DNA of 64,000 nucleotides. Source: Boletus sp. NGJ (taxonomy: Eukaryota; Basidiomycota; Agaricomycetes; Boletales; Boletaceae). This document shows positions 20,722 through 64,000 of the stretch, one piece after another; the stretch's first letter is position 1, and each line of letters opens with the position of its first letter. The stretch is from contig JAGTXK010000106.1 of assembly GCA_019096195.1 (NCBI GenBank), positions 30,931 through 94,930 of the forward strand, read 5' to 3'. The translations under genes and the position numbers were made by a program. Below the pieces are notes generated by a model. That model was not told the origin of the DNA. It was given only the letters and a program-made list of their open reading frames with translations, and searched no databases.

Positions 20722-22337
20722 TCACAAATATTTGCAAGTAAGATGTACCAACTTCATCAAGAGACACAGATGCAAATCTAAATCTCTGTGACCTTTTCCG
20801 AGAGCATATACCCTGCTGAGGTGATACTCTACCGTAGTGAAGCCTTTTCTGTACTTCACTAAGTCAACAGCTGACTCGAGCATATCCACAGCTTCCATGA
20901 ACTCTGGATCACCCCTTCCAAAAGCGGAAATCCTTTTCATGTGAAATTTGAGGAGACAACTTAATGACAAGGCAAGGTCCTTCCTCTGTAGATCCAGTCT
21001 GAACAAGATTTCAACTTCATCCGTGGGCTAGAAAGAGTGATATCGATATCCACTTCAGCCTTGCAGTCACCATGTATTGAGTTTAGAAGGTCACAATACC
21101 TGCTCGGTCTCCACTGCGTTAGGATCTTCGGAATATTGTTCGCTGTGGACTCGAACTCAGTACAAGTGAAACAAAACAAATATAAATATACAGCTGAATG
21201 TTCTCACCATTCCATGGGTTGCAAGAGATCGGAGGGATAAATAGTAGCTTTGGTGTTTTCCTCCTCCTTCATCTCATTTAGCATGATATCGGCGACAAGT
21301 TGGCAGTCAGCTTGGACCCATAAATCGAAGGTTGATTCCCATTTCTTTTGTTGTTTGAAGTCAAGGTTGAGGTAGATCACTTGGGGCAAAGAATCGTGAG
21401 GCGGGCAATGTTGACGGATATGTTGAGCGAATGCCCGAATCAACCTCCAGTTCCGACCACGTGCATCCCGGTTCCGACCACTAGCAAAAGATCCATTGGC
21501 TGGGCTCCAGACAGATCTTGTCTCTGAAATTCAGCAATATGTTCAGCATCAGGATGTTCCTGCTCATAGAGGACGATGTCTGGAACCATGGTTGGTACAG
21601 ACTGCATTCGTCTTCCGGACTCTCGCCTGGCTTCTTGTCTTCTATGGCAAGCGCTACAAAGGGGAAATCTTCCAGACATGAGCTTATCACGGTGGGGTTT
21701 CATAATCTCCACAGCATGACAAGACTGGCAGTAGAGGTGCTGAAGATCTCCATGGAGGGGAATGCATCTGGCGCCATGGAGGTCATCTTGAGGGTGTGTG
21801 CGATGATACATAGACAAGCCAGCTTTTAGCTCCAGGCCGTCTATGTTTTGGGTGTACATGCGAACCAACGTCCCTCGATCGTCGAGGGTCTTAAGGAGCT
21901 TGTGAAATTGTGTAGGTTTGCTTTCCTCCACTTTCTGTGCCATACTGGCAACAAATCGGCAAAATAAGGGTCGCTGGGTTTCATCCTAAATAAAACAGGT
22001 TCATACCTTGGGTAATACTGAAGCATATCTGAACAAGGGTCCCTGGAAGGGATACTCACCGTGATCATTGAAAGGTTGAACATGTCCTTTAGCTTTCTCT
22101 GTGCTAATTCTGGAACCCCTGGAATGTGTTGCTTGCTTCTAAAATCAGGAATGCCAGCAGCTACGGAAATGCCTGCCCCTACGCATACAACTGGGTCAGA
22201 ATATGTACCGCTAGCTTTACTGGCTCAGGTTTTATGCTTGCCACAAATGAAGATGATGCCCTTTGCATTCAAGATGGCCGATTTCAGGGACTGTGTCCGG
22301 GGATCTTCATTTTCAAAACTGCACTTCTGGAGAGACA
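20722..22337 (-). CDS. Sirtuin (NAD-dependent deacylase, HST3/HST4-like) with C-terminal helical module; apparent frameshift
   Basis: ATG at 22335-22337. Sirtuin motifs in order: GAGISVAAGIPDFRS (NAD binding), YTQNIDGLE, catalytic His in LHGDLQHLYC, two Cys pairs (CQSC and CSAC) for structural zinc, and LLLVVGTGMHV. Class resemblance to fungal HST3/HST4, which deacetylate H3K56, is inferred. The Gly of GAG is restored only by a GC-AG intron (22179-22241). After VVGT the frame shifts by one near 21447 and continues as RLIRAFAQHIRQH...VIYLNLD, so either one base is missing or the gene is damaged. Beyond the deacylase core an acidic linker and an exon with TDEVEILFRLDLQ lead into the FHMKRISAF...PEFMEAV...EYHL module shared with the two neighbouring genes; stop at 20722. 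Confidence 0.75.
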
Positions 22338-28468: not shown

Positions 28469-31400
28469 CTAGCCCTGCCTAGCCTTCCCCTTACCACGGT
28501 TCCGAGTGACACCCTTGAAACGCCCCATTCCTCCGGGAATAAGAGGAGTACCGCTGATGTCTTCTATCAATGGAGGCCGGCGGGAGTTGGAGGGACTTGC
28601 TATTGCAGGTGTCCCATTGTCATTGTGTTTGCATTGGCGTGGCCTCACACCCGGTGTCATTCTTACAGCGCCGTGTGATTTGGAACTTGAAGGGAGTGAT
28701 TGGGAAGGAGGTGATGGGGGTGACACGGGTGAGGAAGCGCGAGTAAGGGAGGAGGGAGGAGGGCTGGACATGGGCGAGGAAGTGTGAGTAAAGGAGGAGG
28801 GAGGAGGGCTGGACATGGATGATGAGGGACCGGTTTCCCACTCCAGTTCAGCAAACTGGTCCAACTCATCTGAATCCACTTGCTGCGTAGAGGATTGCAT
28901 GACATCAAGGAGAGGATCGTTGTCCGGGTTCCAAGAAAGCTCAGGTTCAGGGTTGATGTCAACATCAAAAAGGCTCAAGGGTGAAGAAGGTGACCTGAAA
29001 TTCGGTGATGGGGCGGAAGGAGTGGGAATGGGAATGGGAATGGGAATGGGAGGTGGGGTAAAGGCGGGAGTAGATATTGCAGAAGTGGAAGGAGGAGGAG
29101 GAGGAAGAGGTGGGAGGGCCAGAACAAAAGTGGAAGTGGACGAAAGATGGGTGGTGGTGGTAGTAGCGATACTCATAGCAGAATGGGTGAGAGTAGTAGG
29201 CAGGGTTGAGATGGTAAAACCGGTTATATTCTCTGGCTGAGCGAGTGCTTCTTCACGCAGCTTTCCCTTTCCCTTTCCTTTCTTGGCAATAGGAACGGGA
29301 GTGATTGCCACCACCGCCTTGGCATGCTTGGGTTTCCGCTGGGCATGCTCAGCTGGGGTGGGGGAGGTCTCTGCGGGACGTTTGCTAGAGGTATGTGGGG
29401 GAGCATGGGACTCATTAAGTGTGGTCCCTCAGGACTTGCGGCCATCACGTTTATCACGTGGCCGCGTGTCTAGTGCCGGCAAACCTTTATCCGGTTCCGG
29501 ATCGGAATGGTTGGAATCGGCCAGCGCTGAAGTGACGAGATCTCTGTCATTAGATTCGCCATTGAATAAGGCCACTGTGGTGTGTGTGAGCAGAGGAGAA
29601 GATAAAATGGTAGTGTATATACGGACGGGCTTTGTCATTGAGACCAACGAAGGCAAGGTGGAGCATGCCTTTGTCGAATGCGATATTGTTGAGGAACACA
29701 TCGGGGGTTCCTCGGGCGACAAGGCGATAGAAGTGAACCTGCTTCTATTGAGGGTATCTGTATATGTGACCACGCAATTGTTCGTCGTCAAGCATGGACC
29801 AGAGGGTATCCTGCAGGGTTAGATGAGGGTCAATATTGATGGAATCTATGGAACAAAGGTCTGACCGCAACGACCATGATATTAGCAGATGCGAGGTTAA
29901 GACCGATGGTGCCGACCATGGAGAGAATAAGAACACGAGCTCCAGTAGTGTGATTTGAGGACCTGAACTCATTGAGAACAAGCTTATGCTTGTTCGGATG
30001 CATCTTTCCATGCAATTCGAGCGCCTGGATACCATACAAAGCCAATACCTAGATCAAGGCAGTAATTAGAAAAGAGCAAGGAGATTCATGGGGAAACATA
30101 GGTTACATCACAAATAGCTGCGTTGGAAGAAGGGAATGCAGAAAAGATGACTATGCGATCAGAGTCGACATGCTCTGCCTCGACCGCTATCTCCGACGTA
30201 TTTACCTCAATGGATCGAGCATCACTACAAATCTTGAGCGGTGGAGCATTGTCAATCTTGAGGTGATGGTCTACTATTTGGGTGAGAATATCTAATTTGG
30301 TAGAGGCCTTGCCCTTCCATTCGACGAGGGAAGTTGGTTTTTGCCAACCATCGGTGCCACAAGGGTTCATGTGAGGATGGAGGAGTCCACGGCGAAATTC
30401 AATGTAAAAGTTCTGAATATAAATATATATGAGCAAGGATGAACGATAAAATTGTGGAGGCAAAGGGATGAGGACATCCGGGTTTGGATTCGGATTGGAT
30501 TCGGAAAGCCCAGTTCCGATAGCTCCGGAACCATCGGAACCTGGGTCGAAGTAAAAGATACGGTGGATGCAAGGTGATGAGCCCACCTTTCCTGTTCCAA
30601 CAAGTGTGGTTAGGGGAGTTTGCTCTATAATTTGATCGGTGAGCAAGTTTAATTCCCTCCACTCCCAATCATGTAGCTCTATGAGCATGACATGTTCACG
30701 GTACAGCCTCATGCTAAATATCTTCCGACCTAGGTAATCTACGGAATCAAGAGTGCGACGGATGACATGCAAAGAAAAAACTTCTCTAAGCCAGGGGATG
30801 TATTTCTGGAGCTTGGGATAAAGCTCTGTCTTCATCGGATCATGAGGATCATTCCTAGAAAAGAGTTTTCTGAGGTGTTCGGCGGTATTTTCTGATTCAC
30901 ACTCAGCTTTGCGATCTCTTGCCTGGGCTCTATTCAATTCCTTTGTCATAGAATCATATGCCACCTTGTCAGAGAACTGTTGGATTCCCATGACATGGCC
31001 CATGATCCATAGATCCTAATATGGCAGCGATCAATCAACGATCAATTACAACAAAAAGAGCAACATATGGAGGGTTAGGAGAATACTGACCTGCAATTTG
31101 GTCATGACTGGGGTAGCGGTCATGGCGATGGTGTTGGTGGACATGGCACGCAGGGCACAGGCTGCAGTGTGCAACTTGTTGAGTTTGCGTGCAGCATGGG
31201 CCTCATCCATAATCATGGCGAGATATTGACAACCATACAATGTAGTTGACACTCGGGATGGATATGCAGAAGCTTTTCTAAGTTCATCTCCAACATTGCG
31301 AAAGATGTCCATGAATATTACCGATGCATCATCTTGGAGTGCCTGGAAAAGATGGGAAAGAGTCAGAGAATTGAAGGAAAAATCGGAAGTGGGCTCGAAG

Positions 31401-33560
31401 AAAAAGAGGCTGAAGGATCTCAGTTGGGACAGGGGAGTCAATAGAATGATACATCATAAGACTTATGCTCTCTGTGGCGAGTATGATACGGTGACAGAGT
31501 TCATGATTACTCTTGGTGAAAACGTCGTTCCACCACCCTTTCCGACTTCCGAGCTTTCCGGTATAAGGGAACAAATCGAATGTGCCCCGTTTAAGGAATC
31601 GTTCAATCTCCCTTGTCCACTGGTGAAGGAGATTTACAGGGCAGATGATCACAAAGGGCTGGTTCGGTATATTTTCCCCTTTCTGACCCTGCCATTGCCG
31701 GCCACCTGCAGTCACTATGTCAATTTCGTTGATCATGGAAGCACAGATCAAGACATACTGAAGGCGCCAGGGAAGGTCTGATTTTTCTCAAAGAAATGGC
31801 GATAGAATGCAAGACAAGCAATGAAGCCTATAACCTGAAACGTCTTCCCTATGCCTACGCCATCCATGAGTAGGACAGGTTCATTCTGGAACACCCTCTC
31901 CAACATCCTATATATTCCGATCAGCTGGTGCCACCGCGGTTCCAACACATCCCAAGGACTGTTCTCAGAGGCTAGCCATTTTTCACCTTCATCACTCCAA
32001 GGATCAATAGTGCCATCCAGATCCACATAAGCCTGGAAAAAAGGAAGAGCCGTGGTATCTTTGAGCCCCAGAAAAGTCCATAGCTCGAGTTCCGAGAGTT
32101 CCGAGAGTTCCTCGGTCCCCTCCTTCCAAGGAAAGTCGATAGCCTTTGCTTCCAGAAGTTCCACGTTGGCGGTCACATCCTCAGGGGCGATATTTTCCAA
32201 AGCAACTTTGAGGAGCTGCTCAATATCGCGTACATCGTTCTCGGAAGCCAAACGTTTAAGCGCGTCCCGGAGAACCTTCGGGAGCTCTGGGTGGAATTAA
32301 GCGCAATCATGGTCCATGCTCAGTAACCAGATTATGGAAGAAAGCTATATGACTCACTGTCCACCTCATCTAGCTTTCCATCATCATTATGTGCAGCCGC
32401 CAGCATCACCTCCAGTGTTTTCTGCTGGGTCTTAAGTTCCTCAATACTCTTTTGATCCTGGTAGCGTGCACGGATGGTCAGGACCCTTCGGAGCCGACTG
32501 AGATAAGCCTTGATCATCTTGACACCGGGGGTGGTGCCTTCCTGCGTGATGGCTGAAAAGTGGAATCATACATCACTCTGTATGAGGAATATAAACATAC
32601 CCCACTCACCTAACCATTCTTCTTGCAGCGCTAACTCATCCTTTTCCAACTGTTTGGATTCCCGGGACAAACCCTTCCGGTATCTATGCCAGGTCTGAAC
32701 TATGAGAACGTTGATGAATTGCTTGACCTCCATCTTCAGAAAGTTGACATCTTCATCCCGGTAGGCTGATTCACCAAGAAGAGCATGTGCGAGGGGCATG
32801 GTAATGATGTGTGTGACCTGAGCATCATCTAGACTCGGTAACTGAATCGCAACCTTAGACGTGGACATGTAGCAGAAAGAAGGAAACATATTCACTTTTC
32901 GTGTGTTAGCCCGTGCGAGGGTATCATATGGGGAGCATTTATATTCTGTGAACACCTCATCAATCCGACGATTCATCTTCCATCTTCTTCCCCAATTTTC
33001 TTGAACCCACTTGTTCCATTGAGACCGACCGATGCTGTCATTGTCGCTAAAGGTTCGTGACGAGTATTTCACTTGCGTTACCATGTCTGAGAATGACCAA
33101 AGATTTCTTGCATAGTTTTTGATGCTCTCTGCGGTCCGGGTCGTCCAGGACCACACAAGTGGAGCGCGAGCATCCGGAGCAGAGCCAGATTCTGTGTCCC
33201 AAGGTACCCCAAAGACTCTGGTGAGATCCTGCCAGATAGGGCTGGTCCATGGCAAGCCTTCTGGGTCTCCCAAAATGAGCAGCGCAGAGCTTATTGAAAG
33301 TGAGGGCATTTCGTCCTCAGTGGTATCGGTATGAAAAAATTCTATGTATCGTGTTGGTGACGTGGCCTGCTCCCTATCACTGGGTATATATATATATATG
33401 ACATGTAAATGACCCTGCTCCGGATAAATAGCCTTGCTCCGAGCAATGGTAGCAGTAGCGGAATTATGTCCCCGAGTTCCGATATAAAAGAAGTCCACGA
33501 TGTCCAAATACAACCACACAATACCACTGTTCCAGGCCTCAGTTGAAATCTTGGCCCAGA
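28469..33560 (-). CDS. SNF2-family-like DNA-dependent ATPase/helicase with disordered C-terminal tail
   Basis: Long multi-exon gene. Conserved motifs in order: motif I DGVGIGKT (31841-31864; DGVGIGKT in place of the usual DEMGLGKT); motif Ia FVIICPVNLLHQW; motif II MDEAH (31195-31209); motif III MTATPV; then the second RecA lobe with VLILSMVGTIGLNLASAN (motif V) and EQLRGHIYRYPQ (motif VI, a variant of Q..GR..R). After the motor come a conserved QVHFYRLVARGTPD segment and a long Ser/Pro/Thr-rich tail with KKGKGKGK and a C terminus GKGKARQG. Upstream exons (32332-33560) encode a ~400-residue N-terminal region without recognised domain. One intron (about 30420-30570) carries a TTCCG-word cluster. 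Chromatin or DNA translocase activity is expected from family; specific role unknown. The 5' end is uncertain; an exon at 34081-34371 might belong to it. Confidence 0.75.
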
Positions 33561-34440
33561 TCTAATACATCGGAGTAGTTTATGTTATGTCATGCAAATC
33601 CTGCCCTCAGGAAACCCTTGTAACCCTAATGATATGCTTGTGTAAATGATTCTAAACTTAAAGACATATTCATATTGTCAGGACTTAATCAAGAGTAACT
33701 ATTCGAAACCTAAGGAATTGTACATTACATTGGGTATGTGAACTACTTATATATTTACATTAGTATCATAAGGTTTGTAATATAAGCAGGGCTATTACAT
33801 ATATCCATGGAAACAGGATTAGGATTTGGTGAGAGGAATGGCAGAATAAACCATGTTAGGACTCAACCTGAACCTACAATCAGAATGATTTGATGTGGTG
33901 TATGAGAAGAGATATGAGGTGAAAATGAAGAAGAACTGTAAATTCTGAGACAAGAGAATATTGTACAGGGATCAACTATTTATATAGATGATTCTGAACA
34001 GAATTTATAATGTACAAAGATGAAAGCAAGACTGGATTAATTTGAAATTGATTATGGAATGAAAAAGAGGGCCATAATAATTATAGGTCAATCCAGCACT
34101 TCCGGGTTAGCTCTGCCGTGAACAAAAACCTCCCGGTGTTCCGGTGGTTCCGAGAGAGTGGGGGCGTGGGAAAGGTCGGGAAGCGGTTCCGGAAATGAAG
34201 TTCCGGTGGTGGAACTCGGAAGGGTAAGAATGTAAGGTCAGGAAAATAATCAACAAAGCGGCGAGCAGTGGTGGTTGAGTATGCAACCACCGTGGGTGAT
34301 GTGTAGTATCTGGATGGCTCGCCTTTCATGGTAATGTAGAAAATGTCCCAAGTTATGTACACTGCATTCAAGTTAGCAGCCAGTGCTTATGGTATATAAA
34401 AGATCATAATGGTGACTATATGGTAGCTACACAGGCAACC
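33561..34440. other. AT-rich interval with one possible exon
   Basis: AT-rich sequence upstream of the SNF2-like gene. The minus-strand frame 34081-34371 has 96 codons with a TTCCG-rich 3' half and could be a 5' exon of that gene or chance. No other feature seen. Confidence 0.3.
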
Positions 34441-34499
34441 TAGATGCCAAGGTGTGCACCATATCATGGTCATTTGGGGTAACCCGAGCATTCCAACAC

Positions 34500-36370
34500 T
34501 CCGTAGCGACCTCGGCGTCCAGGACAGCTCATATACATGGGACATCAAAGTTACTAGTCATTCTGACAATGTGATTAGGGTATTGGTCAAAAGGGTTGGT
34601 TAATAATTCTGCAAATGTGATAGTGACATGGGCATCCAGGACGCCCAGACATGCACTGGGTCATTTGGGGTAACCCGAGCATCCCGATACTCTATAGTGG
34701 CCCAGGCATTCGGACTCCCACGTGTACATAGGGACATCATGAATAATAATTCTAACAATATGATAGTGACACAGGCATCCCTGATGCCCGCATGTACTAA
34801 GGATAACCCGAGCATCCCGATACAATGTGACGGTGACATAGGTGTTCGAGGATGCCCAGATGTGCAACAGACCGTGAGTCATTTGGGATAACCCGAGCAG
34901 CCCGATACTCTGTAGTGATGAGGGCATCCAGGATGCCCACATGTACACGGGTCATCACGGTTTTATAATTCTGATGGTATGATAGTGATGTGGGCATCTA
35001 GGATGCCCATACATGCACTGGGCCAGGGGTTCTTTTGGGATAATCTGAACATTCCGACACTCTCTAGTGACATGGATGGGCATGGGGCATCAGGGTTACT
35101 AATAATTCATAATTCCGTCAACATGACAGTAACAAGGGCGTCCAGGATGCCCAGATGTGCAACAGGCCATGGGTCATTTAGGATAACCCGAGCAACCCAA
35201 TACTCTGTAGTGATCCAGGCATCCAGGATGCCCACGTGTACACGGGTCATCACGGTTTTATAATTCTAATGGTATGACAGTGATGTGGGCATCCAGGACG
35301 CCCATACATGCACTAGGCCATAGGACACTCAGGGACTAATTGACCACTAGCACATGTCACGATATTAATTAGTGAATGTCAGAATGCTCGGATTATCCCA
35401 AAAGAACCCCTGGCCCAGTGCATGTATGGGCATCCTAGATGCCCACATCACTGTCATACCATCAGAATTATAAAACCGTGATGACCCGTGTACACGTGGG
35501 CATCCTGGATGCCTGGATCACTACAAAGTATCGGGTTGCTCGGGTTATCCTAAATGACCCATGGCCCGTTGCACATCTGGGCATCCTGGACGCCCTTGTT
35601 ACTGTCATGTTGGTGGAATTATGAATTACTAGTAACCCTGATGCCCGACCCATGTACACTGGGCGTCCTGGATCCGGATCACTACAGAGTATCGGGTTGT
35701 TCGGGTTTTCCCAAAAGAACCCCTGGCCCAGTGCATATATGGGCATCCTAGATGCCCACATCACTGTCATACCATCAGAATTATAAAACCGTGATGACCC
35801 GTGTACATGTGGGCGTCCTGGATGCCCTCATCACTACAGAGTATCGGGCTGCTCGGGTTATCCCAAATGACTCACGGTCTGTTGCACATCTGGGCATCCT
35901 TGAACACCTATGTCACCGTCACGTTGTATTGGGATGCTCGGGTTATCCTTAGTACATGCGGGCATCAGGGACGCCTGTGTCACTATCATATTGTTAGAAT
36001 TATTATTCATGATGTCCCTATGTACACGTGGGAGTCCGAATGCCTGGGCCACTATAGAGTATCAGGATGCTCGGGTTACCCCAAATGACCCGGTGCATGT
36101 CTGGGCGTCCTGGATGCCCATGTCACTATCACATTTGCAGAATTATTAACCAACCCTTTTGACCTATGCACATGTGGGTGTCTGGGATGCCTGGATCACT
36201 ATGAAGTGTTAGGATGCTTGGGTTATTCTAAATGACCCAGTGCATGTCTGGGCATCCTGGATGCCCATGTCACTATCACATTATCAGAGTTAGAGTTATT
36301 AACCAACTTTATTGACCTGTGCACATGTGGGCGTCTGGGATGCCTGGATCACTATGGAGTGTCAGGATAA
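34500..36370. repeat. Array of ~75 bp-spaced palindromic units forming a giant inverted repeat
   Basis: About two dozen copies of a short palindrome (consensus GGGCATCCWGGATGCCC, often one or two mismatches) recur every 67-85 bp, for example at about 34629, 34701, 34768, 34841, 34923, 34993, 35133, 35218, 35288, 35430, 35500, 35579, 35661, 35742, 35812, 35892, 35960, 36030, 36103, 36177, 36250 and 36328. Between them are AACCCGAGCATCCCGATACT-like and AATTCT-type blocks. The left half (about 34588-35325) and right half (about 35408-36161) are reverse complements about an axis near 35374, so the array is also a large imperfect inverted repeat with a ~80 bp spacer. Open frames running through it are repeat read-through, not genes. 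Confidence 0.85.
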
Positions 36371-37265
36371 TAACCAACAACTACTTATATATATCTGGAA
36401 GTCCAGAATGCTGAAGTTATTATGTATAGTTGGAAGTATGGGAATTCCTAATCACATTGTACCTGTGAGCTGCTAACATATGTGTCAAGTCTTATAGGTT
36501 TTTTTAAAAAAATCTTTACCCTAGAGCTAGGGAATTTCAGAAAGTCAATCCCATAACCCTGGGTGCTCAACGCCTATAACCTATCTGGCACCCATCTCCT
36601 ACTCCATCCCCCTCACACACCGAGCGAAGCGAGGTGTGTTCGGCCCCCCTAACCCTCCAAGATGCGGATGTGATGAATTTAAATTTAAAGAGGAGGGGAG
36701 TTTCTGCTCGTTCGGGTCACCCAGCAGCTCCATATAGTGGTGCTTGGTGAGAAGTTGCGGTTGGTCCGTAGCCCCTGCATATGCATATGTTCTGTTTGCT
36801 GGGAGACGGACAGTGGGATAGAAAGAGAAATGCATCAGTATCTCGAACGGGAAGTAACCGTGCAATGGAAAGAGAAACATGTCAGTATCTCGAACGACAG
36901 ATTTGTGATTCATTGTACGACTCTGCGTCGTCGTTCTCCTTTTTAGTTCGACATATTCGCAGGGATATCCCATCATAGCAATCCCGTCATAGCATTGCCT
37001 GAGCACACGATAATACCTCTATGTACTCTTTACCCTTACTGTACCGTATATCAAAGATAACTCATTACCACAGCACTTTAGTCCATTGCATTATCATTAT
37101 CCTGCACGACTATTATACCATCTACCTACTCGAACTCACTTGTATGTAGTCGATCTCTTTGGTAGCCGTCGTGCATCGATCCTTTAGCCTTTATTACATT
37201 GTACATAGTTCTTGTTCCATCCACTTGCATACCCGTTACGACTCCACTTCTATTTCAAAGTTTTT
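36371..37265. other. Gene-poor stretch with a dispersed GGCCGAAC/GAGCGAAGCGAG element
   Basis: The interval 36555-36665 contains a segment (reverse complement TTAGGGGGGCCGAACACACC ... GTGTGTGAGGGGGATGGAGT ... GGTGCCAGATAGG) that is repeated near 62645-62735. No gene supported. Confidence 0.45.
36555..36665 (-). repeat. Copy 1 of a dispersed hairpin-containing element
   Basis: On the minus strand it reads GTTAGGGGGGCCGAACACAC, an imperfect hairpin around CTCGCTTCGCTCGG, then GTGTGTGAGGGGGAT and GTGCCAGATAGG. The plus strand at 62645-62735 carries the same order of blocks, and 63125-63190 has a shorter relative. Confidence 0.6.
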
Positions 37266-37269
37266 TTTA

Positions 37270-37470
37270 TAGATGGCTTGGCCAAGGGGGAGGGGTTGCC
37301 AAGGGGAGAGGGGACAGGGACAGGGACGCCAAGGAGAGGGGACAGCCAAAAGGGGACTGGGAGACGCCAAGGGGAGGGGACAGCCAAAAGGGGACTGGGG
37401 ACACCAAGGGGAGGGGACAGCCAAGAGGGGACTGGGGGACAGCCGAGAGGGGACAGCGAAGTGAAGGGAC
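37270..37470. repeat. G-rich minisatellite, unit ~36-40 bp
   Basis: Imperfect tandem units of the form ACGCCAAGGGGAGGGGACAG followed by CCAAAAGGGGACTGGG. At least four units are seen between 37300 and 37470, with GGGG tracts every 4-12 bases on the plus strand. Confidence 0.8.
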
Positions 37471-39546: not shown

Positions 39547-40314
39547 TTAAAACCATAGCGTCAATAGCGTTAAACTGTACCCTGCCAGTCCCAGCACTGC
39601 AAAAGCGGGGTCAGCAACACACGCGCAACACGACACGCAACTCACGGTACCCCGTCACCTTCTCCAACAGCGTATGGAAATACACGCTCGTCGTCCCGAG
39701 CGCAAACAACCATATGGCGACGAGACTCATCATCGCCGCCACCGACCACGTATGCATCCGCGGCCACGACACGGCACGCAACGACGGCACCAACTGGTCT
39801 GCGAGGAACGAGATCGACATGGTCAACAAAAAGATGTGTCCGGACACGTCATGTCCCCTACAGAGTCTCGGGACCGTGCTCCAGGGTGGTTCGGGGAGGA
39901 TCAGCGGGGCTGCGAACAAGTGTGGGTGCGTGAGGGGTGAGAGACGGAGGTGGGTGAGACAGTATTCGTCGAGAATTGTAAAGGAGGCGCTGATGGGGAG
40001 TGCGATGGTGCATTCGCCCCCTGTGAGGAGGGCGAACCGGTCCATGAGCGCGGGTCCAAAGAACCAGCTCGTGAACGCGAGCCAGGCCAACGAGGCGAGC
40101 GTCCATTGGAAGACACGGCTGAGGGCTTGGGTGTGCTGGGGGCTCGTGAGCCAGAGGAAGAGAAAGGCGAAGGAGGTCCAGCCCCAGGCGCGTTTGATGA
40201 ACCAAAGGTTGAGGGGGTTGGATTTGTTAGCAAAGTAGTCGGACTAGTGGAGATGGTGGGGAAGGTTAGCGCTGCATCCGTCACCCAGCACGCTGCACGC
40301 CCCATTACACGCAT
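39547..40314 (-). CDS. SCS3: FIT2/SCS3-family ER membrane protein (acyl-CoA diphosphatase), N terminus short
   Basis: Exons 40285-40314, 39646-40243 and 39547-39596 with introns of 41 and 49 nt. The main exon opens with DYFANKSNPLNLWFIKRAWG and holds several hydrophobic helices and the two family hallmarks RGHDVSGHIFLLTMSISFL and TTSVYFHTLLEKVTGY, whose histidines are the proposed catalytic pair of FIT proteins. The last exon encodes LLGLAGYSLTLL. FIT2/Scs3 proteins act in the ER membrane, cleave acyl-CoA to acyl-4'-phosphopantetheine and support lipid droplet and ER homeostasis. The core frame is intact. Only ten residues precede DYFANK, with an upstream in-frame stop, whereas relatives have ~45 residues including a first membrane helix; the 5' end is therefore truncated or an upstream exon was missed. 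Confidence 0.82.
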
Positions 40315-42360: not shown

Positions 42361-44715
42361 ATGGTTAGGTTAAAGACCAAACGAGCGCAAAAGCGGAAGG
42401 AAAAAGGATATTCGCGTCAGATACCACGAGCACCAACCCCGGATGATGACTCCGATGCGGAAGAAGCCCACTCTCTTCGGCCCGCGAAGCGACCCCGGCG
42501 GGACGAGGCTCGAGGTGCTATTCCCGCCGAAGATCGGCTTGCTGGCTCGTCCAAGCCCCCGACACAAATCATATCCCTCCTTATTCTCGTACAACCCAAA
42601 AATCGACGCCCCAGAGCGCAACTCTGTTCCCAAAGCACCTTCCCAGCACAGTAACCCTCCCCCTCGCGTCCTCCTCTGGATTTTCGGAACTTGGACTCCA
42701 CCCACTTCTGCTTGCGCACCTAGAGTCTAAAATGGGGATAACAAAACCCACGTCCATCCAACGAGCCGCCCTTCTCGTGTTTACCAATCCTCCCTCGGAA
42801 GACATGGCAGAACGAGACGTGTTCATACAGTCCCAGACGGGGTCGGGAAAGACCCTGTCGTTCCTTCTCCCCATTATCCATGACCTCTTTCCCTTGAGCA
42901 CCCACTCCTATATCGACCGATCTATAGGTACACTCGCCCTTGTCATCGCGCCTACTCGCGAACTTGCAAAACAAATCTCAGACGTCCTCGAGTCCCTCCT
43001 CACACTTAAACTCCGACCCGATGGCGAAACCGACGATACCGAGTCGTGGACACAATATACACGCTGGCTTGTCTCAGGCTTGCTCTCCGGTGGGGCAACC
43101 CGTGCCCATGAAAAAGCGCAGGTGGTTGGTACTCGATGAAGCGGATCGGCTGATGGAACTTGGCTTTGAGGAAACGATCAAGGGTATCATCCAAGGACTC
43201 GATGGCTGTCGGAAATTAGCCGTTCAGGCTGTCAACGAGGGGAAAAGCATGGAAGTTGGCGGCTGGGATTGGCAGCGCAGAAGACGGACCATACTTTGCT
43301 CTGCAACAATTCGGGAGGATGTCCAGAAATTGGCGGGAACGACGCTAGTGAACCCTATCATGATTAAAGCGGTTGATACCGAGGAAGAGCAGCACTCACA
43401 ACAGCAGAATATATCTCCGCTGACCTCGTCCTCTGAAAACTTCACTCCACCTCAACTTGCCCAGAAGTACATCGTTGTACCTCTGAAGCTACGACTAGTC
43501 GCGCTCGTTGCCCTCCTTCGCTCCATCCTTGCACAAAATCAAGCAAGGAGAGGTTCGAAAGTCATTGTATTCCTTAGCTGCACCGATTCTGTCGATTTCC
43601 ACTGGCAATTACTAGGCGGCTCAAAAATGGGAACCTCAGAATCTGAACCAGGCGAGACTGGTGAAAAGTCCGATGGTAATGAACTCTGCTCGGAAGATGA
43701 AGGTCTCGAGAAAGGCGAAAACATATCAGTCCAATCTCCCCTTCTCCCCGACACCCATATCTATCGGCTTCACGGTTCTCTCCCTACACCAACCCGTCTT
43801 GCGTCCCTTCGCGGCTTCTCGTCTACGACGTCTAGCAAGGGTAGCCAACCCTCTACGTTCTCCTCTGTCCTCCTTTGTATATCTGTTGCCTCTCGCGGCC
43901 TCGACTTGCCACTCGTGCGTGCCGTTGTCCAGTATGACTTACCCACTGAAGGCGGAGCGACTGAGTACGTGCACCGAGTTGGACGTACTGCACGCGCAGG
44001 GAAGGGAGGGGAGGCATGGGGCATAGTCGCACCAAGCGAATCAGAGTGGGTAAATTGGGTGGAAGGGAAGATGCGGGGGGGATCTGGACAACAAATCAGA
44101 CGAAGCCCAGAAGACAAACGTCTCGCTCGAGGAATGAGCGTTGAAGGCGTGTTGGCCAAGGGTTTCGGACGTAAGGGTTCCGAGTACGAAGCCCGCACGA
44201 CCGATGTGCAGCTCTCGTTTGAGTGGTGGGTGTTGCGAAGAAAAGAAGTGAGCCTCCGCTCTTTCTTTTGCCATCTTTCCTCTTTCATACAAACTTTCTA
44301 GCGCTCGGAACTTGCACGAAGAGCCTTCTCCTCACATATGAGGGCCTATTCCACGCATCCGACAGACGAAAAACATATGTTCCACGTCCGCAATCTGCAC
44401 ATTGGACATCTTGCAAAATCCTTTGCGCTTCGAGAAGCCCCGAAAACCATTACCGATGGCGGCAAGAAAAGCAACCACTCCCAGGCCGCCAAACCCAAGG
44501 CTTCCAAATCCGCTCGCCCAGCTAGCGGCCGGAAACCACGCGACCTGGATGTATCTCAACGTACGGGTGATGCGGAAAGACGAATGACCGAGGTCGTTCG
44601 TGCGCATGGTCGAATGTCAAAGAAGAGAGGAAGGATGATAAATAGCGGGACAGACGAGTTTCAGATCGCATCTGGCGCTTCTCTGGAGAAGCTCGTACAG
44701 GGTCATCGGCCATAG
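42361..44715 (+). pseudogene. DBP7: DEAD-box RNA helicase DBP7-like, with frameshifts and internal deletion
   Basis: Homologous to Dbp7, a nucleolar helicase for 60S subunit assembly. Visible: basic N terminus, SLFSYNPKIDAPE, Q motif PTSIQRAAL, motif I QTGSGKT, SFLLPIIHDLFPLS, motif Ia PTRELAKQ, GLLSGGATRAHEKA, motif II LDEADRLMELGFEETI, motif III CSAT, motif V ASRGLDLP, motif VI HRVGRTARAG, and a C-terminal exon after a 54 nt intron with [20 protein letters not shown]. Lesions: one extra base near 42575 (in CCC) and one near 42661 (in CCCCC) break the N-terminal frame; at about 43118 the sequence jumps from HEKA directly to RWLVLDEAD, removing ~35 residues that hold motif Ib (TPGRLLDH) and changing frame. 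The deletion cannot be an intron remnant and would abolish activity. Either a decayed copy or partly assembly error. Confidence 0.85.
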
Positions 44716-47146: not shown

Positions 47147-51325
<4,179 letters not shown>

Positions 51326-62054: not shown

Positions 62055-64000
62055 CTTGCGAGTCCTTCAATAATTTTCTTTGGTGTTCTCAAACGGAGAA
62101 GTGTAGATCATTTAGCCATAGATTAAAGGAACAGCATATAGTATAATGACATTTTGTACAGCCTGTATGTATATGTGAGCGCGCGAAGCACAACAAGGAC
62201 GTACCATCCATATACTGTACAAAGATAAGTCATGTGAGATGCACCAGAGTGGGCAGCGATCCCAAGAAGCGAATGATGGCGAGAATGAACTTGAGGGGGA
62301 AATCATTAAAGTTGTGGATGCGCTGCTGTCGTAGAAGATGGTCAAAATTGATGGATACGAGAATGAAACACGCAAGACAATAGGGCCTGACTGCACACTG
62401 ATCAGGATTTTTGACTCAGCCCGAGCATGGGGAACTGTGCGTCCATCCTCTCCCCCAGGTCCCTATTCCTGCCCTTGGCTCGCTCTCGGAGAATACCCCA
62501 TTTGATCCACCAGTCATTGGCCTGATCTTCGGCATCGTATCCGAATAACTCCTTGACTTGTTCCCACTGATTCAGAAGTTCACTGCTCGAGAGTATGGGC
62601 CGTCCCTCGGCAACCTGTTTACGTAGCATATTGTCGTGTTGGTTAGGGGGGCCGAGCACAGTGAGCGAGGCGAGCTGTGTGAGGGGGATAGGAGTGGGAT
62701 GGTGCCAGATAGGTAATAGGCGATGGGGCGACCGCTTCCATTGCCACCTATTTCGTCCGGGGACTCATCAGACCTCTGGCGAATAGAGAAAAGTATTTCA
62801 TAACTCTTACCTGTATTTATACAAGAAAGAGTTGCGCACGGACCATTAATATAACGTGGGAGAGCGGAGATAGACGCAGCGGAAATTAAAGCCGGATCTT
62901 GCCGGTAACACTCGGATCTTTCCGGTTGCGCTTCTGCATGAGAATTCTCTCACGGCTAACGGTAATTAAATTGCCGAGCCGGGTGTTGCAGTAACCGAGT
63001 CGGGCCGTTCGGGTCTTCGGTCTGATGCTTCTTTTGGCTATCTCCGGGATCAGTCTAGACCACTTACGTAATATTATCTCACCCCTTGCCGGGGGTGTGC
63101 CACCGTTAGGTTCTCTAAGTTAACCGGTTAGGGGGGAGCGAGGAGGGTTAGGGAGCCGAGCCGAGCCGCGAAGCGGCGAGGCGAGGCGTTACCGGCGGTA
63201 AGGCGATAACGCTGTTGCCTCGGCAAGGGATTACCTTTTGGGTCGCACTAGAGATATTGTCTACCGGTCGAGTAACCAATTCGCCGGCGGTGTCTAGCCT
63301 TAGCTAGCACCCTAGTGCTTATCTACACTAAAGGCCCGATCATGGGTTTCGACCTTTTGGTCTCATCAGTAGGGGCGCACACCCCTAAACCCACACCACC
63401 TTAGGACATACTAACCGGCTTATGTACACCTCACCATGATTTTGTATTGTCCTGGGCAGACTGGCTCATGAAATTTCCTTTTCAGGACTTATGACCGCCA
63501 TACTTAGGAATTTCTCCCACGCAGCCGCTTTCAGACCCCGCAATCACGTGTCATTGGTGCGCCGTGCCGGCTGTTAACCGGCCGCGTTATACCCGGTGAA
63601 CGCTTAGTCAGCCGCAACCCCCGCGGCTCGTTAGTTAACCGGTCACGTGACATTGGAAATTGACCACGATCGCTACACTAGTAGTAGGGCCGCGGTGGCC
63701 ACATAAAACGCGTACCAGTCAAGGCAGTGGCGTTAGGAATTCCTACAGTGGGTTAACGCCGCACAAGGATACGCAGTGTTCGGCTAGGGGATGTGCGCCA
63801 ATAGCAGGTCACGTGCCAAGTCACGTGATCGCCTTCGCCGTGCCGGTTTAACCAGGCGATCTACTGATTTGAGATCCATTGGTAACCATCAGCCAAATCG
63901 GGTCATAGAACATGCCCGTGGGTCCGCGCTGAAACACGCTCCCCAGCCAATTTCACGCCGGCAAACCAGAGCTATTTTCATAGATGGGTCCGATCATTTT
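62055..64000. other. Repeat-rich window end without a secure gene
   Basis: Short minus-strand frames at 62112-62396 and 62402-62659 (the latter with NQWEQVKELFGYDAEDQAND) have no recognised family; the second abuts the dispersed element at 62645. The rest is rich in GTTAACCGGT, CCGGC and CACGTG words, including several (G)TCACGTGA sites at 63540-63830, and looks like non-coding mobile-element sequence. Confidence 0.4.
62645..62735 (+). repeat. Copy 2 of the dispersed hairpin-containing element
   Basis: GTTAGGGGGGCCGAGCACAG, an imperfect hairpin (AGCACAGTGAGCGAGG...GAGCTGTGT), GTGTGAGGGGGATAGGAGT and GTGCCAGATAGG, matching the minus strand at 36555-36665. A related block GTTAGGGAGCCGAGCC with GCGAAGCGGCGAGG lies at 63145-63190. 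Confidence 0.6.

Follow-up and report, generated by a model that had tools for sequence, protein, structure and literature searches.

Foldback transposons carry long inverted arms. In the case of Tetris from Drosophila virilis, the arms contain ~220-bp repeats and only three structurally complete copies are described, in a paper that also names FB and Galileo (PMC4079207). Minisatellite and satellite arrays with dimeric higher-order repeats are another related class. In yeast, short inverted repeats close to breaks were reported to prime foldback inversions and inverted duplications, in a study that involved whole chromosome ends and mostly repair mutants (PMC10622511). In fungi, hairpin-derived small RNA loci have been reviewed, and the review calls for exploration of the natural occurrence of long hairpin RNAs (PMC9757828). 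In the basidiomycete Cryptococcus neoformans, inverted-repeat constructs are described as silencing genes (PMC7175516). Moreover, C-to-T changes with a CpG signature have been reported in repeats of three basidiomycetes that possess an enzyme of Masc2 type and, alongside other signatures, of the ascomycete Tuber (PMC4352252).

The array from Boletus sp. NGJ studied here shares with the foldback transposons (PMC4079207) its long inverted arms of tandem repeats and the lack of any coding region found, but differs from them in that no target duplication, conserved ends or second copy were found. With dimeric minisatellite and satellite arrays it has in common alternating monomer types, amplification of a dimer and a left edge more diverged than the centre; unlike them, it is a single short array in its genome and its halves lie in opposite orientation. 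It resembles the yeast foldback inversions (PMC10622511) in being a large inverted duplication in which palindromic cores would supply priming sites, whereas the copied stretch is short and the eroded centre, whose best short inverted repeat is 7 bp, hides any priming site. Like the fungal hairpin loci (PMC9757828), it is a self-complementary stretch in a genome with Dicer and Argonaute genes, but it shows no pairing-preserving changes. Among the titles and abstract openings searched, none described this array or a fungal inverted dimeric minisatellite.

Monomers and inverted repeat

The window, a stretch of 64,000 nucleotides, corresponds to positions 30931-94930 of a 94,930-base contig, i.e. 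to the end part of that contig. The palindrome GGGCATCCWGGATGCCC was found in it 14 times with up to 3 mismatches, every time within 34630-36266; the same search in 100 shuffles gave a mean of 0.11 and a maximum of 1. With up to 6 mismatches it occurred at 37 places in 34301-36450. From these, 24 were retained as monomer cores, including three (34513, 34704 and 36029) with 6 mismatches each, and most of the 13 discarded places either belonged to a second motif, repeated within B monomers, or overlapped other matches. The spacing from core to core was 68-82 bp in 20 out of 23 cases, and the remaining three values (117, 144 and 141) mark irregular places. The initial annotation had described about two dozen regularly spaced palindrome copies, which is in agreement with these counts.

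Two monomer types, A (~70 bp) and B (~80 bp), mostly alternate along the array, and the amplified unit is therefore an A+B dimer of ~150 bp. Tandem-repeat analysis, also proposed in the initial annotation, yielded periods of 152 and 147 in the array (Tandem Repeats Finder). The A monomers at 34922 and 35217 are 94% alike, while the neighbours 34922 (A) and 34992 (B) are 60% alike. When the A and B profiles were run over the window they matched the array, and the sole outside match with E ≤1 was an A at 48723 (E 0.44). A scan of the window with model R1 gave zero matches outside the array.

As shown in Table 1, the array extends past the arms of a large inverted repeat on both sides. Alignment of 34582-36167 with its own reverse complement gave 91.5% agreement over 1608 columns, including 44 gap positions, with the axis at 35374.5. 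In two clean segments, set by eye (34582-35043 with 35706-36167, and 35085-35321 with 35410-35646), the arms match at 677 of 699 positions. The claim that the two halves are reverse complements around 35374 was thus confirmed. The monomers, which run head to tail inside each half, change orientation near 35371, where a short spacer had been supposed. Profile B matched there at 35287-35374 (+) and 35368-35444 (-), so that no unique spacer exists at the centre and two diverged B monomers meet instead. In the rearranged patch, the right-hand partner holds one monomer core more than the left-hand copy. The monomers beyond the arms keep, on both sides, the orientation of the adjacent half. The most diverged monomers of the array are those at its left edge, and the junction at ~34583 is irregular, an A monomer being followed by a partial A monomer at a spacing of 117. 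The spacings past the right arm are 73, 74 and 79.

Table 1. Features of the array and annotated gene pieces in the window.
Feature	Position in window	Strand	Basis or remark
Whole array	34433-36368	.	two alternating types of palindrome-bearing monomer, ~24 in all
Outer left monomers (B, A)	34433-34583	+	outside the arms, more diverged
Left arm of inverted repeat	34582-35321	+	self-alignment
Rearranged patch, left arm	~35041-35085	+	partner at ~35660-35705 differs in length and content
Centre	35322-35409	.	head-to-head meeting of two B monomers near 35371, tails diverged
Right arm of inverted repeat	35410-36167	-	self-alignment
Outer right monomers	36168-36368	-	outside the arms, regular spacing
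SIR2 gene piece	21443-21985		Pfam
SNF2-related gene piece	31332-31787		Pfam
Fat-storage-inducing protein (FIT) gene piece	39614-40243		Pfam
DEAD helicase gene piece	42928-44298		Pfam
Cys/Met PLP enzyme gene piece	49349-50002		Pfam

Inverted repeats are in general prone to misassembly, and the possibility that the axis is a chimeric or collapsed join was considered. A self-join, however, would yield identical arms. The arms differ at 22 of the 699 positions, their outer ends are unequal and the patch between the segments has another length and content in each arm, which leaves an assembly artefact with hardly any probability.

Between A and B, the palindromic core is the most alike part of the monomer (75%, against 50% for the rest). 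This could reflect a constraint on the core, and a common ancestral core would give the same result. Following this likeness, the array might be taken as a series of binding sites in which a dimeric protein would bind the 17-bp palindrome for gene control, replication or chromatin. We regard this as very improbable. Within each type, the core is little more conserved than the rest (78 vs 70% in A and 80 vs 73% in B), and the core variants break the symmetry, mostly through CpG-type changes. With up to 2 mismatches allowed, the genome contains the palindrome 13 times inside the array and at only 10 scattered places outside it (reversed control 0). The scattered matches were considered to be at about chance level, the expectation by our own arithmetic being roughly 4, and the only one of the 10 that was inspected, with 1 mismatch on contig C45, was solitary.

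Scans of the window against Rfam (at gathering scores) and for tRNA genes yielded nothing. The array had zero matches in plasmid and phage collections, and an exact 35-base pattern had no match in viral contigs. A scan of bacterial type, with models unsuited to a fungus, reported 9 promoter-like sites (4.7 in shuffles) and 1 terminator-like site (1.4 in shuffles); the promoter-like sites recur because the monomers recur.

Distribution in the genome and decay of the arms

Searches of the own genome (32.8 Mb, 141 contigs) with DNA queries of 2 kb, 273 bp and 5.2 kb, which followed a suggestion of the initial annotation, located array monomers at this locus alone, the copy counts being lower bounds. 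Similarly, when up to 3 mismatches were allowed, a non-palindromic motif of 25 bp had 9 matches genome-wide, all 9 inside the array (reversed control 1). The edges of the array (34301-34620 and 36130-36460) were scanned for end repeats with a target duplication, using 10-bp ends and up to 2 mismatches, a setting that old mismatched duplications would escape. Three candidates were obtained, all of 4 bp, which is not above the five shifted controls (3-5 candidates each, the longest of 3-4 bp). No transposase was found in the 15 window frames scanned with Pfam, i.e. 14 of the 50 frames of at least 150 aa plus one shorter frame. The absence of end repeats and target duplication above the controls and of a second copy in these genome searches supports the earlier opinion that the locus is not a standard transposon.

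Since its anatomy resembles that of Tetris, the array was nevertheless considered as a possible remnant of a foldback-type, non-autonomous DNA transposon, with inverted arms of tandem sub-repeats and surviving as the last copy in the genome. This was kept as the first rival explanation. The long inverted arms filled with tandem repeats and the absence of any coding capacity found are what such an element would display, and Tetris is reported to be similarly built (PMC4079207). The outermost monomers, however, are diverged and do not form conserved ends, and the results on end repeats, second copy and transposase given above also speak against a relic of this kind, which we consider unlikely.

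Among the 22 arm differences there are 19 transitions and 3 transversions, the latter at, or at most three bases from, the ends of the segments set by eye. The excess of transitions over two-thirds has a p of 0.035 for all 22 differences, and of 0.0005 (19/19) when the three transversions are left out. The transitions lie in CpG (11), CpA (5), CpT (2) and CpC (1) context, and the share of CpG (11/19) is well above that among all cytosine positions (91/686, 13%; p 4e-6). The A/T state is in the left arm at 11 of these sites and in the right arm at 8. Such CpG-enriched transitions are as expected for the decay of methylated cytosines; the pattern itself is observed, and methylation would be its presumed cause. 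In the genome, five DNA-methylase stretches were over the cut-off, and one gene piece is DNMT1-like.

The arms have a CpG observed/expected ratio of 0.56, compared with 0.87 for the remainder of the window and 0.45-0.69 for the neighbouring kilobases at 30-39 kb. Because these neighbouring kilobases outside the array are CpG-depleted too, the CpG decay is not peculiar to the array. Repeat-induced point mutation of the ascomycete type, which prefers CpA, was also tried as a candidate and rejected, with CpA at 5 of the 19 transitions against 11 for CpG and CpA making up 36% of the cytosine dinucleotides in the stretch.

Predicted hairpin RNA

The minimum-energy fold of the + strand at 34640-36110 has -1366.9 kcal/mol, nearly all of it in one stem, a value that has no shuffle comparison at this length. 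As the long stem takes nearly the whole sequence in this fold, the small hairpins are predicted to compete with it. The initial annotation had proposed a transcript folding into a long stem studded with small hairpins; the very long hairpin is thus upheld by the prediction and the studding is not. When monomers were folded alone (8 of the 24), z ranged from -0.58 to -3.00, with one value below -2.

Argonaute (Piwi) matches were found in the genome at six places on five contigs (15 stretches, 14 of them over the cut-off); those for Dicer dimerisation lie at four places, spread over three contigs. With Dicer and Argonaute genes present, it is possible that the array serves as a source of small RNAs through its predicted hairpin RNA. 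If small RNAs did arise from it, the array would represent a natural long-hairpin trigger of silencing.

Changes that preserve pairing were looked for in both structures. On a + transcript, pairing survives as G-U at 8 of the 19 transitions between the arms and is lost at the other 11 (p 0.65), and on a - transcript it is kept in 11 of 19, neither strand showing a bias. Palindrome pairs changed on both sides numbered 0 of 8 in the 11 rows of B (0.6 in shuffles) and 1 of 8 in the 9 distinct rows of A (1.6 in shuffles). The paired cells of the palindromes (85.2 and 71.8%; shuffles 85.5 and 73.1%) were above slid controls, as must be the case for any shared palindrome. Pairing-preserving changes are thus not in excess in the long hairpin or in the small palindromes, and, within the limited power of so few changes, these data give no support for selection on RNA structure.

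These results also bear on the idea of a functional long-hairpin RNA locus, whose transcript would be cut by Dicer into small RNAs that silence something, perhaps the array itself. The long near-perfect hairpin and the Piwi and Dicer-dimerisation matches are in its favour, as are the inverted-repeat constructs reported to silence Cryptococcus neoformans genes (PMC7175516). Against it stand the unbiased arm transitions on both strands, the compensatory palindrome pairs, which do not exceed shuffles, and the single low z among the eight monomers folded alone. We judge such a locus improbable. Equally doubtful is a broader version for a basidiomycete, in which the minisatellite transcript would feed Dicer and Argonaute and direct CpG methylation back onto its own locus, while foldback duplications started time and again at the palindromic cores would restore the hairpin.

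Origin of the palindrome and its surroundings

Taken together, the features of the locus make it fairly probable that the array is a single-locus, non-coding minisatellite with dimeric higher-order structure that became a large palindrome, through an inverted duplication or through conversion of one arm by the other, and is now decaying. The two monomer types, the regular spacing of the cores, the orientation flip, the arm agreement of 677/699, the single locus, the CpG-biased transitions, the methylase genes and the divergence at the left edge all fit this explanation. On the other side, the likeness of the cores between A and B is higher than that of the rest (75 vs 50%), the transition excess over all 22 differences has only a p of 0.035, CpG depletion is found in the neighbouring DNA too, and the older orientation change is accounted for in outline rather than in detail.

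According to this minisatellite origin, a ~75-bp monomer around the palindromic core diverged into A and B and was amplified as the ~150-bp dimer, as the present repeats show. At some time, the halves of the array acquired the opposite orientation that they now display, in a manner that can be proposed only in outline. Later, ~740 bp comprising most of one half may have been copied onto the other, either through gene conversion between the arms or through an inverted duplication of the foldback or template-switch kind. As it is the left junction that is irregular, while the right side is regular, the copying probably ran from right to left. We infer at least two steps from the sequence, an older orientation change and then recent copying. 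Since the copying, the arms have decayed by cytosine transitions, chiefly at CpG, as would be the case in methylated repeats. A transcript of the array would form long double-stranded RNA that a fungal Dicer could possibly cut.

No sign of a function was seen in the sequence of the array. Its structure is striking, yet without signs of selection on that structure. On the minisatellite origin, it would show in compact form how a tandem array turns into a large palindrome whose arms then decay.

Several other repeats lie near the array. Just to its right, a GGGGAC-rich minisatellite with a 37/38-bp period occupies window positions 37316-37457. A dispersed repeat of ~88 bp (CGAGCGAAGCGAGGTGTGTTCGG...) is present at 36568-36656 and 62641-62725, and at least 14 rows at 76-90% were obtained for it in the own genome, the window copy at 62641 being among them. 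The segment 36986-37192 has 70-75% matches on the own-genome contigs C107 and C65. The sole genome match reported for 5.8S RNA, with 39 of 947 candidates scored, lies at C81:1729574-1729740; it is perhaps a stray copy, as its surroundings are not obviously an rDNA unit. The DUF6533 family, which is expanded in Agaricomycetes, has 19 matches in the genome.
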